Positions 21,838 to 25,865 of a stretch of DNA of 64,000 bases are shown in pieces. The notes under the pieces were generated by a model. It was not told where the DNA came from. It saw nothing but the letters and a program-made list of their open reading frames with translations, and did no database searches. How positions within the stretch are numbered: position 1 is the stretch's first letter; each line of letters starts with the position of its first letter. The translations under genes and the position numbers were made by a program. This DNA is from Paracoccus aerius (lineage in GTDB: Bacteria > Pseudomonadota > Alphaproteobacteria > Rhodobacterales > Rhodobacteraceae), in contig NZ_BNCL01000011.1 in assembly GCF_014656455.1 (NCBI RefSeq), positions 1 to 64,000 of the forward strand, given 5' to 3'.

Positions 21838-22320
21838 TCAGCCGGCAAGCGTTCCCAGGCGGCTGGCCACGAGGTTGGAATGCGTTTCGACAAGGTGAAG
21901 CGCGTCCTCGGTCAGGTCGGGGCGCGGCTGGCGGCTGAGAAAGCAGAACATGCCGAAGACGCTGCCGTCGGGTCGATGGACCGGCACGGACAGGTGGCTG
22001 CCGATGGGGATCATCTGGGTGATCGGCAGGTCGGTCGCGATCTTGTGGCGACTGGTATCGGGCATCAGGCGGGGCAGATTGCCGTCGATGATGTGCTTGC
22101 AATAGATTTCGCGCAGATCCATGCTCTGGCTGGGCTGGATCATCGCCTCGAGCCCTGGGGCGCTGACGGCGCGGAAGACGGCGCGGCTGTCCATGAATTC
22201 GGACAGGTAGGCAACCTCCATCCCCAGCGTTTCGCGCACCGTTTCCAGCGACAGCTGAATGGCCGCGTGATCGGCGGTGTTTTCGGCGACGGCGGACAGG
22301 GCGGGCGAAAGGCTGGGCAT
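21838..22320 (-). CDS. Stand-alone GAF-domain protein
   Basis: The 160-residue protein is one GAF domain: an N-terminal helix (SLETVRETLGMEVAYLSEF), then SVPVHRPDGSVFGMFCFLSR, the characteristic GAF strand pair near the C-terminus. Cys in YCKH and FCFL are potential redox or ligand sites, but no function is proved. It has no output domain, so it would act as a separate sensor, perhaps for a partner elsewhere. GAGGA lies before the ATG. The intergenic space upstream holds a large palindrome next to the RAYT gene. Confidence 0.8.
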   Translation of the reverse strand: MPSLSPALSAVAENTADHAAIQLSLETVRETLGMEVAYLSEFMDSRAVFRAVSAPGLEAMIQPSQSMDLREIYCKHIIDGNLPRLMPDTSRHKIATDLPITQMIPIGSHLSVPVHRPDGSVFGMFCFLSRQPRPDLTEDALHLVETHSNLVASRLGTLAG

Positions 22321-22385: not shown

Positions 22386-22430
22386 GCCTCGGTTTTTATC
22401 GGTCGCCGTTAACCGACCGGAAACCGAGGC
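22386..22430. repeat. Large nested palindrome upstream of the RAYT gene
   Basis: The outer arms are a perfect 10-bp stem (22386-22395 with 22421-22430). A second 6-bp stem (22400-22405 with 22414-22419) nests inside it. The sequence could extrude as a cruciform or fold as RNA. It ends 15 bases before the RAYT start codon. It differs in sequence from the three downstream REPs but occupies the 5' flank, as REPs do in RAYT units. Confidence 0.7.
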
Positions 22431-22445
22431 GCGCGATGTTGGCGC

Positions 22446-22924
22446 ATGTTGCGCTATCTCCGCCCCCGCCTGCCCGGCGTCCCGATCTTCTTCACCGTCG
22501 CCTTGGCGCAGCGGGACAGTCGGCTGCTGGTCGATGAGGTTGATCGCCTGCGCGAGGCGGTCAGGGCGACGCAGGCGGAACGGCCGTTCGGGATGGATGC
22601 ATGGGTTGTGCTGCCGGATCACCTGCATTGCCTCTGGCGCCTGCCCGATGGGATTGCAATTATTCGACCCAGTGGCGGCTGATCAAGGCGCGCTTCTCTC
22701 GGGGCTTGCCAGCAGGACCGTTACGCGGCAGCCATGTCGCCCGGCAGGAACGCGGCATCTGGCAGCGCCGGTTCTGGGAACATCATATCCGCCATGACGA
22801 GGATCATGCGGCGCATCTGCGGTATTGCTGGTTCAATCCGGTGAAACATGGATATGTGAAACGGCCCGAGGATTGGCCGTATTCGTCATTCCACCGCGAC
22901 AAGGCCGCCGGAAAGGTGGCGTAG
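22446..22924 (+). pseudogene. REP-associated tyrosine transposase (RAYT, Y1/HUH type), frameshifted
   Basis: The first reading frame (22446 to a stop at 22682) encodes the HUH half, with the metal motif in LPDHLHCLWRLPDG. The second frame supplies the rest, STQWRLIKARFSRG and the C-terminal part with the catalytic-Tyr region WFNPVKHGYVKRPEDWPYSS, ending at 22924. The two join if one G is added to the GGG at 22650-22652. RAYTs are single-copy, domesticated IS200/IS605-like transposases that process REP hairpins. A sequencing error in a short G run is possible, so it may be intact in the organism. Confidence 0.85.
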
Positions 22925-22944
22925 GGTGCGTGCTTGCACGCACC
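22925..22944. repeat. REP palindrome 1
   Basis: A perfect 9-bp stem (22925-22933 with 22936-22944) closes on TT. It begins at the RAYT stop codon, preceded by GTAG. The GTAGGGTGCGTG type is a REP class widely seen beside RAYT genes. Confidence 0.85.
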
Positions 22945-23018
22945 GTGTGTCGGTGAGGTGGGAGGAACGGGTCATAGAGTGGGCGAGCAGACCGCCCGGA
23001 TGATCGTGCAACCCGTAG

Positions 23019-23038
23019 GGTGCGTGTTCACACGCACC
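23019..23038. repeat. REP palindrome 2
   Basis: A 9-bp stem (23019-23027 with 23030-23038) closes on TC. It is a diverged copy of REP 1 in the same orientation, again preceded by GTAG. Confidence 0.85.
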
Positions 23039-23061
23039 ATTGGCGACGGCGGCGAGGAAGC

Positions 23062-23081
23062 GGTGCGTGCAAGCACGCACC
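23062..23081. repeat. REP palindrome 3, inverted
   Basis: This is the exact reverse complement of REP 1: a 9-bp stem (23062-23070 with 23073-23081) with an AA loop. With REP 2 it forms an inverted REP pair (BIME-like) just before the end of the AT-rich orphan gene. Confidence 0.85.
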
Positions 23082-23099
23082 CAACGCTTGCTGTGTCAA

Positions 23100-23966
23100 T
23101 TACTCATCAAGCAGCAAATCATCATCATCGTCAGGGCCAAGGTCGCTATAATCTCGTCGGACTGCTAAGACTTTAAGTCTCTTTGCACGACCATCCATTG
23201 TGTCAATGGATGTGAAACGAGCTACCACCTCCATCTTTGCATCAAACTTGCCTTTTTCACGCAAAGCGAATGCCCCCGCAGCCGCAACAATCGTCTCCAA
23301 GCTCTCACGATCCGCATCAGCCAGCAGATCAAGTGTAAACGCTTGCTCAGCTTCCAAATCGAACATTCGTCCGGTCCTATTTCGTCCATCATAGCTTGTG
23401 ACTAGAAACCGCTGGGACCTAACTTCGTTATTAAAAACTTCCTCGTTCATGTAGGCTTTTGTTTCGCCGCTCAACTGGATCGAATTATCATCTCCGTTAA
23501 CAAAAATTGTTATGTTTCCAGATCCATGATTGATGACATTATGCGCCTTGCGAATAGCTGGTTCTGTTGCCTGAACCAGGGCACCAAAGTCTCCCGACGG
23601 AACCTTGTCATCCAGTTCTTCAACACGCTCGCGCCTCAGTTGGCCGGTTGCCGTGAGAAAAACCCGTTTAATTAGATCCCAAGTTACTCCACCTGCGACA
23701 GCATTAGCTGCAAAAACGCCAAGGTGTTCTGCCTGATCAGCATATTGAAAGATAAATTCAAAAGAACCTTCGCGAGTCCCAACTAGAAGTAGATCCGACT
23801 CAAGGTCCTTGATACGCTTACGACGAACCTCTCCACTTCTAGCGTAGTGAATGATAACACTTACAGCTTGGGAAAAGGCTTCAGCACTTTCAAGTGCAGC
23901 AAATGCAGGAACCATACCAGTTCTCGCAAGACCGCCATCCAACTTTGCAATCAATGTTTCTGTCAT
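23100..23966 (-). CDS. AT-rich orphan gene, function unknown
   Basis: The 288-residue product is soluble, without signal peptide or membrane span. It has a mixed alpha/beta N-terminal part, a middle segment NITIFVNGDDNSIQLSG reminiscent of a small beta hairpin, and an acidic C-terminal tail with five Asp. I do not recognise a family. A 60-base sample (23401-23460) is about 40% GC, against roughly 65-70% in neighbouring genes, and AT-ending codons are common, so recent transfer is likely. The ribosome site is weak. It sits between the REP cluster and lepA, which marks this spot as an insertion site. Confidence 0.7.
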   Translation of the reverse strand: MTETLIAKLDGGLARTGMVPAFAALESAEAFSQAVSVIIHYARSGEVRRKRIKDLESDLLLVGTREGSFEFIFQYADQAEHLGVFAANAVAGGVTWDLIKRVFLTATGQLRRERVEELDDKVPSGDFGALVQATEPAIRKAHNVINHGSGNITIFVNGDDNSIQLSGETKAYMNEEVFNNEVRSQRFLVTSYDGRNRTGRMFDLEAEQAFTLDLLADADRESLETIVAAAGAFALREKGKFDAKMEVVARFTSIDTMDGRAKRLKVLAVRRDYSDLGPDDDDDLLLDE

Positions 23967-24016
23967 AAACCCAAAATCCTAATGACTATATGCGGTCTTA
24001 GTGCTGGGGTCAGTCA

Positions 24017-25816
24017 CTACCCATCCATCTTCAACGCCTGAATAAACGCCGTCTGCGGGATCTCCACTTTCCCGAACTGGCGCATCTTCTTCTTGCCGGC
24101 CTTCTGCTTCTCCAGCAGCTTCTTTTTCCGCGTCGCGTCGCCGCCATAGCATTTGGCGGTCACGTCCTTGCGCATGGCCGACAGTGTCTCGCGCGCGATC
24201 ACGCGGGCGCCGATGGCCGCCTGGATCGGGATCTTGAACATGTGCCGGGGGATCAGTTCCTTGAGCTTTTCCACCATCACGCGGCCACGGGCCTCGGCGC
24301 GGTCGCGGTGGACCATGATGGACAGGGCGTCCACGGGCTCGTCATTGACCAGGATCGACATCTTGACCAGGAAATCCTCGCGGTATTCGCTGATCTGATA
24401 GTCGAAGCTGGCATAGCCCTTGGTCACGGATTTCAGGCGGTCGTAGAAGTCGAAGACGACCTCGGCCAGGGGCAGGTCATAGACGACCATGGCGCGGTTG
24501 CCGGCATAGGTCAGGTCCAGCTGGATGCCGCGGCGGTCCTGGCACAGCTTCAGCACGTCGCCCAGGTATTCGTCGGGGACCATGATCGTGGCCTTGATGC
24601 GCGGCTCCTCGATATGGTCCACATGGGTCAGGTCGGGCATGTCGGCGGGGTTGTGCAGGTCGCGCACCTCTCCGTCGCGCATGTGCAGCTTGAAGACCAC
24701 CGAAGGGGCGGTGGTGATCAGGTCCAAGTCGTATTCGCGTTCCAGCCGGTCGCGGATCACCTCGAGATGCAGCAGACCCAGGAAGCCGCAGCGGAAGCCG
24801 AAGCCAAGGGCAGCCGAGGTCTCCATCTCATAGCTGAAGGAGGCGTCGTTCAAGGCCAGCTTCTCGATCGCGTCGCGCAGGGCCTCGAAGTCGTTGGCGT
24901 CCACGGGGAACAGCCCGCAGAAGACCACCGGCTGGGCTGGCTTGAAGCCGGGCAGCGCGGCCTCGGCGCCCTTCTTTTCATGGGTGATGGTGTCGCCCAC
25001 GCGGGTGTCGCGGACCTGCTTGATGGAAGCGGTAAAGACCCCGATCTCGCCCGGGCCCAGTTCGGCGATGTCCACCATCTGCGGGGTCAGCACGGCCAGC
25101 TTGTCGATGCCGTAGACCGCCCCGGTCTGCATCATCTTCACGCGGTCGCCCTTGCGGATCACGCCGTCCATGACGCGGATCATCACGACAACGCCCAGAT
25201 AGGCGTCATACCAGGAATCCACCAGCATGGCCTTCAGCGGCGCGTCGCGGTCGCCCTTGGGCGCGGGAAGGCGCGTCACGATGGCTTCCAGCACGTCGGG
25301 GATGCCGAGGCCGGTCTTGGCGCTGATCGGGATCGCGTCCTGTGCGTCGATGCCGATCACCTCCTCGATGTTGTCCTTGACGCGGTCGGGTTCGGCGGCG
25401 GGCAGGTCGATCTTGTTCAGGACCGGCACGATCTCGTGGCCCGCGTCGATGGCCTGATAGACATTGGCCAGGGTCTGCGCCTCGACCCCCTGGGAGGCAT
25501 CCACGACCAGCAGCGAGCCTTCGACCGCGCGCATGGACCGGCTGACCTCGTAGGCGAAGTCCACATGGCCCGGCGTGTCGATCAGGTTCAGCACATAGGT
25601 GCGGCCGTCCTTGGCCGGATAGCTGATCCGGACAGTGTTGGCCTTGATGGTGATGCCGCGTTCCCGCTCGATATCCATGCTGTCCAGAAGCTGGGCCTTC
25701 ATGTCGCGTTCGGCGACAGTGCCCGTCAGCTGGATCAGCCGGTCGGCCAGGGTGGATTTGCCGTGGTCGATATGGGCCACGATGGAGAAATTGCGGATCA
25801 GGGAAAGCTCGGTCAT
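24017..25816 (-). CDS. lepA: Elongation factor 4 (back-translocase)
   Basis: The 599-residue translational GTPase has G1 AHIDHGKS at 14-21, G3 DTPGHVDF and G4 NKIDLP. The C-terminal LepA-specific domain includes [20 protein letters not shown]. Length is normal. EF4 acts on ribosomes under stress or during assembly. The ATG at 25816 gives the expected N-terminus [18 protein letters not shown]; a TTG 15 bases upstream is less likely. The 3' side has the transferred orphan gene. Confidence 0.97.
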
Positions 25817-25865
25817 GGCCGGGCTATACAAGGGCTTTGGCCCTGCGGGAAGGGGATTTTGCAGC

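Follow-up and report, generated by a model that had tools for sequence, protein, structure and literature searches.

Results

A split RAYT gene and its REPs

The window, by which we mean the whole 64,000-nucleotide stretch of Paracoccus aerius DNA that was analysed, contains a RAYT gene with three GGTGCGTG hairpins on its 3′ side, followed by an AT-rich accessory gene and lepA (Table 1). Near 22650 the frame of RAYT is interrupted, as seen both in the open reading frames and in the match to family model NF047646. The model is matched over its full length, split between two frames, and only the C-terminal part passes the family cut-off alone; Pfam gives a weak Y1_Tnp match, below cut-off. The 5′ part has an HLH motif, which we take to be the HuH motif, and the 3′ part, in the other frame, has the stretch YCWFNPVKHG, which presumably carries the catalytic tyrosine. 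With these motifs in different frames, no single protein of the window holds both; the gene would thus be a pseudogene giving no working RAYT, since neither product is expected to be catalytic.

Table 1 Features of the RAYT-lepA region, in window positions
Feature	Position	Strand	Remarks
5′ palindrome	22386..22430	.	separates RAYT from the divergent GAF-like gene; found once in genome, not a REP
RAYT 5′ part	22446..22682	+	78 aa to out-of-frame stop; NF047646 positions 1-68, 67.4 bits, below family cut-off
RAYT 3′ part, other frame	22601..22924	+	NF047646 positions 69-146, 99.6 bits
REP 1	22921..22944	+	GTAG tag and hairpin; RAYT ends on the TAG of this tag
REP 2	23015..23038	+	GTAG tag and hairpin
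REP 3	23062..23085	-	inverted, degenerate tag GTTG; pairs with REP 2 in opposite orientation (REPIN-like)
Outer edge GCTTGCT	23086..23092	.	homology with several relatives stops here
AT-rich accessory gene, DUF7946, 288 aa	23100..23966	-	slot between REPs and lepA
lepA (elongation factor 4)	24017..25831	-	conserved far side of slot; named from annotation of similar records

In an alignment with six relatives the window gene is one base shorter near 22650 than each of them, which together with the two frames bears out the one-base loss in GGG (22650-22652) proposed by an earlier reading made from the sequence alone. One of the six (G013) bears different RAYT lesions, and many relatives have open copies above the family cut-off. 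Whole-genome profile searches of the window's genome (G000, 4.22 Mb in 107 contigs) found no other match to NF047646 or PF01797; the second, intact RAYT that the sequence-only reading had proposed looking for was not found. The gene is therefore single copy, and it has the same lepA-facing place in 29 of the 35 RAYT-bearing genomes of the genus, as would be expected under vertical inheritance.

The hairpins, three as the sequence-only reading had described, have their cores at 22925-22944, 23019-23038 and 23062-23081, and that reading's pairing of a RAYT with cognate REPs also stands, given the two NF047646 halves, the three hairpins and 14 exact cores genome-wide. Its statement that the last palindrome is the exact reverse complement of the first holds for the 20-nt core and fails for the longer arms (96% over 27 nt), because REP 3 has the tag GTTG, not GTAG. 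It missed the use of the REP 1 tag as the RAYT stop codon. REP 2 and the inverted REP 3 fold together at -25.4 kcal/mol (z -3.3). GTAG ends the gene at 55 of 109 RAYT loci (some genomes counted twice, broken copies included), with a hairpin directly after it in 47 of these 55. In the relative most alike at the locus (G001, 94% over 742 bp) the tag is GTGG, and both tag and RAYT stop are lost. GTAG REPs are already reported often to give TAG stops to flanking genes (PMC3733652), and REPs to sit, in some cases, immediately 3′ of rayt stops (PMC2817692).

The palindrome on the 5′ side folds at -17.7 kcal/mol (z -4.6) and had been counted as part of a complete unit; it is unrelated to the REPs. 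It occurs once in the window's genome, once in G001 and not at all in a second relative, G027 (three genomes searched), the homologous stretch of G027 folds poorly, and four other aligned relatives diverge there. We therefore reject it as a REP. The GAF-like gene (21838-22320, named by its look only) lies between RAYT and the upstream neighbour, and its stretch is unmatched in four loci (L021, L026, L034, L042).

Age and reality of the frameshift

A hand tally, polarised against four relatives, gives six non-synonymous and eight synonymous changes on the window branch of RAYT, and five and four on the G001 branch, a few outgroup states being ambiguous. The window ratio is similar to those among other relatives, which suggests that most of the branch was still constrained; a neutral gene would be expected to show about three non-synonymous changes to each synonymous one. 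A long-dead gene is rejected on this tally, leaving a recent lesion or an assembly error as the two readings. The sequence-only reading of a RAYT 'caught at the moment of inactivation' is compatible with a mostly constrained branch, assembly error being the less likely alternative.

If sequencing or assembly had dropped a base from an intact gene, one would expect what is seen: a tally of 6:8 instead of about 3:1, neither half with any further stop or shift, and a shift site that adjoins a short G run. Against this, short-read sequencing rarely miscalls runs of three G, and damaged RAYTs recur in the genus (7 of 35, the window's included). We judge an artefact unlikely and the lesion probably real. 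Programmed -1 frameshifting, which would yield a full RAYT from two frames that do overlap (22601-22682), is rejected as highly improbable, since no classical slippery heptamer is seen by eye and many relatives encode RAYT in one open frame.

The two halves of the gene (22446-22924) differ in their lowest-dS relative besides G001, which is L022 for the N half and L042 for the C half, hinting at possible recombination inside the gene.

REP copies in the genome and the genus

The window's genome contains 14 exact REP cores grouped into 9 sites, and the other genomic copies that the sequence-only reading predicted are thus present; a reversed control pattern has no match here or in any of the 125 genus genomes. 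With two mismatches allowed the counts are 22 for the core and 2 for the control. Tag and palindrome, repetition through the genome and inverted pairs at several sites identify the elements as GTAG REPs/REPINs, with a low copy number for REPs. Tag decay was considered as a sign of inactivity and dropped: GTAG is kept at 10 of 14 exact cores here and 20 of 23 in G001 (hand tallies), which is too close to call.

The genus genomes were classed by hand as 28 with an open RAYT, 7 with a broken one, 5 with weak other Y1 matches and 85 with none. At least two exact cores were found in 22 of the 35 RAYT genomes, whatever the state of the gene, compared with 1 of the 90 others (the 85 and the 5 together); Fisher's test gives p 1.8e-14, for genomes that are not independent. 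The exact core is absent from 7 of the 28 open-RAYT genomes, whose own REPs perhaps differ.

REP sites compared with two relatives

Eight of the nine exact-core sites match a G001 REP locus, exactly or with up to two mismatches; the ninth, C10:34176, has no counterpart among those G001 REP loci that were retrieved. Of the exact-core sites in G001, 17 by hand tally, 10 lack an ortholog among the REP loci of the window's genome. The places of six of these were located here by both flanks and that of L148 by one, while L132, L146 and L147 were not located. All 11 exact-core sites of G027 match G001 REP loci, though two do so less fully: L165/L124 matches on one contiguous flank only, and L168/L132 at 82%, its place in the window's genome not being located. 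Five of the 11 match a REP locus here, and five of the other six were located here with no intact REP.

The state of the located sites in the window's genome can be summarised as (i) a whole REPIN missing (site A); (ii) a degenerate REP remnant (B); (iii) other DNA in place of the REP (C and G); (iv) a terminator-like hairpin instead of the REP (D); (v) a deletion (E). At G000 C5:28875-29849 (L175, L176), 10 bp replaces the roughly 85 bp of REPIN and edges present in G001 (L144) and G027 (L161), with the flanks kept. L153 has a G+C-rich terminator-like hairpin here and a REP in the two relatives (L136, L163).

Judged from four sites that carry REPs in every one of the three genomes, the window's genome is nearest to G001 (89-95%, against 88-91% between G001 and G027), by which the absences here would be losses. 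The flanks over about 3 kb contradict this at sites D and E, where G001 and G027 are more alike than either is with the window's genome; site A is mixed (96 and 94% nearby), C is marginal, and only B (85% nearby) favours the pairing of window and G001. Near lepA, G122 is closer to the window's genome and to G001 than those two are to each other. Loss of REPs here as against gain in G001 and G027 thus appears, on these comparisons, mostly undecided. The REP sites of the three genomes give no positive evidence of REP spread after RAYT loss. The locus had been put forward as one that can show whether REPs spread without their RAYT; it is a weak test, being one genome with a young lesion, compared with a G001 that has itself lost the RAYT stop. 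For Pseudomonas and Stenotrophomonas a comparative answer has already been published (PMC3686654), with the model that REPs decay once the RAYT is inactivated.

A variable slot between RAYT and lepA

The gene at 23100-23966 has a GC content of about 0.47 and matches DUF7946 at 31.7 bits (cut-off 27). It has no PADLOC match up to E 0.1, no homology to the slot gene of L021, no homologue in the plasmid collection and no credible match among solved structures (best E 0.41).

Five loci from other genera add to the 29 of the genus, giving 34 distinct loci with RAYT facing lepA. The six RAYT-bearing genus genomes not placed at lepA comprise two whose contig ends before any lepA match (G018, G029), two that have no lepA match in about 6.5 kb of retrieved DNA (G100, G043) and two where the C-half query found nothing in the DNA retrieved (G103, G065). 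In G089 a second RAYT copy also lies away from lepA, most RAYT loci of other genera have no lepA within the DNA examined, and at L101 the two genes are 3.7 kb apart and not convergent. Four loci that appeared to duplicate a genome already represented are left out of the slot counts.

The interval is filled in 25 of the 29 genus loci, with 739-4295 bp at GC 0.37-0.60 against flanks at 0.61-0.70; the remaining four intervals measure 44-373 bp. The main ORF runs with lepA in 22 of the 25 (hand tally), and an all-against-all comparison found few related contents, in two groups of three and two loci. Such varying genes are seen across Paracoccus loci L016-L039, L185-L193, L197 and L199-L201. Compared with G001, the window is 94% identical on the RAYT side as far as 23092 and 90% on the lepA side beginning at 24010, the DNA in the middle being unmatched; there G001 has an OLD/GajA-like gene (L187) instead of the DUF7946 gene. 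The locus shows one mark of a defence hotspot, conserved flanks around differing accessory genes. Transposase or integrase genes occur in three loci (L185, L188, L197).

Some of the contents resemble defence genes. In a scan covering the main ORF, and sometimes a second, of each interval, the main ORF gave a PADLOC match at E<=1e-9 in 7 of the 25 filled loci and 1 of 10 control window proteins did so, too small a difference to show enrichment; that control protein matched 23 PADLOC families (best 6.5e-25). The matches are to TIR (L017), NucC-like (L024), PDC-S59 (L038, L188, L200), OLD/GajA/AriA-like (L187) and AbiU (L189) families, and the other main ORFs have weak matches or none. A SLATT protein is encoded at L043, a Rhodobacter locus. 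Defence enrichment in the slot may be called suggestive only. The PDC-S59-like gene of L188 (G027) is short, at 217 aa over model positions 202-404 of 428, and an integrase-core (rve) gene adjoins it. No publication on this slot was found among the matches listed, in a search that subscription journals mostly fell outside.

The RAYT/REP unit might itself capture or exchange the slot genes. This would fit the high proportion of filled intervals and two observations on the GCTTGCT edge. Among the 13 filled genus intervals in which a REP of this kind was identified near the RAYT end, 11 have the edge or a one-letter variant behind the last REP, and the exact edge is missing from 42 GTAG REPs checked, two of them at G027's RAYT. 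However, in 12 of the 25 filled intervals our script found no such REP near the RAYT end, and slots that adjoin broken RAYTs (L197, L200, L201) are filled too. Further evidence comes from lepA regions, each about 11.8 kb long, that hold no RAYT match in the vicinity of lepA: seven were read, five from Paracoccus and one each from Cereibacter and Pseudorhodobacter. Four of the five Paracoccus replicons have a lower-GC segment of about 750 bp behind lepA (93-99% alike, hence not independent; the P. ferrooxidans annotation gives two hypothetical genes there), and P. denitrificans HAMBI_2443 has none. The place thus varies where no RAYT is nearby. Three distant lepA loci from viral contigs gave no RAYT match. 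We consider capture by the unit improbable. We read the slot as a core-gene hotspot with RAYT/REP along one border; a causal part for the latter is hypothetical.

Discussion

Intact RAYTs are thought to nick single-stranded REPs and to copy REPINs. We propose, with fairly good confidence, that the window carries the sole RAYT found in its genome, a frameshifted domesticated Y1/HuH transposase that faces lepA and has a GTAG REP at its stop, and that the REPs of the genome are stranded. By parting the half with the HuH motif from that with the tyrosine, the one-base frameshift would leave no catalytic protein; the 14 exact cores would then be stranded, and REP loss may follow. The slot in which AT-rich genes differ among relatives is bounded by the outer edge of the REPs and by the end of lepA, and exchange of these genes would most simply occur by homologous recombination in the conserved flanks.

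The locus resembles the RAYT/TnpAREP system with GTAG REPs (REPtron) in its NF047646 protein, in the GTAG hairpins adjoining the gene and in the inverted pairs elsewhere. It differs in that the gene is split and in having 14 exact cores where REPs usually exceed 100 copies per genome (PMC2817692). The pseudogenised RAYTs of Pseudomonas and Stenotrophomonas (PMC3686654) offer frameshifted genes, leftover REPs and a model of REP decay; here the host is an alphaproteobacterium, the RAYT is single and the locus is kept in most RAYT-bearing relatives. With core-gene defence hotspots (for example PMC10250203) the slot shares conserved flanks and changing contents, some of them defence-like, whereas it is small, has its main gene directed with lepA in most cases and has a RAYT/REP edge opposite.

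A broken RAYT with its REPs is ordinary decay, as the known life cycle of these genes would lead one to expect. The slot adjoining lepA is the less expected part and is worth following. A domesticated transposase could be kept because its REP edge aids exchange of neighbouring accessory, partly defence-like genes, and would so maintain a small immunity slot directed with a housekeeping gene; we hold this to be improbable. The slot does raise the question whether a benefit of RAYT retention is tied to the neighbouring genes. For new single-gene defence systems the lepA-RAYT interval offers a compact search space, and the genus table provides a case where the copy number of one REP type tracks the presence of RAYT.
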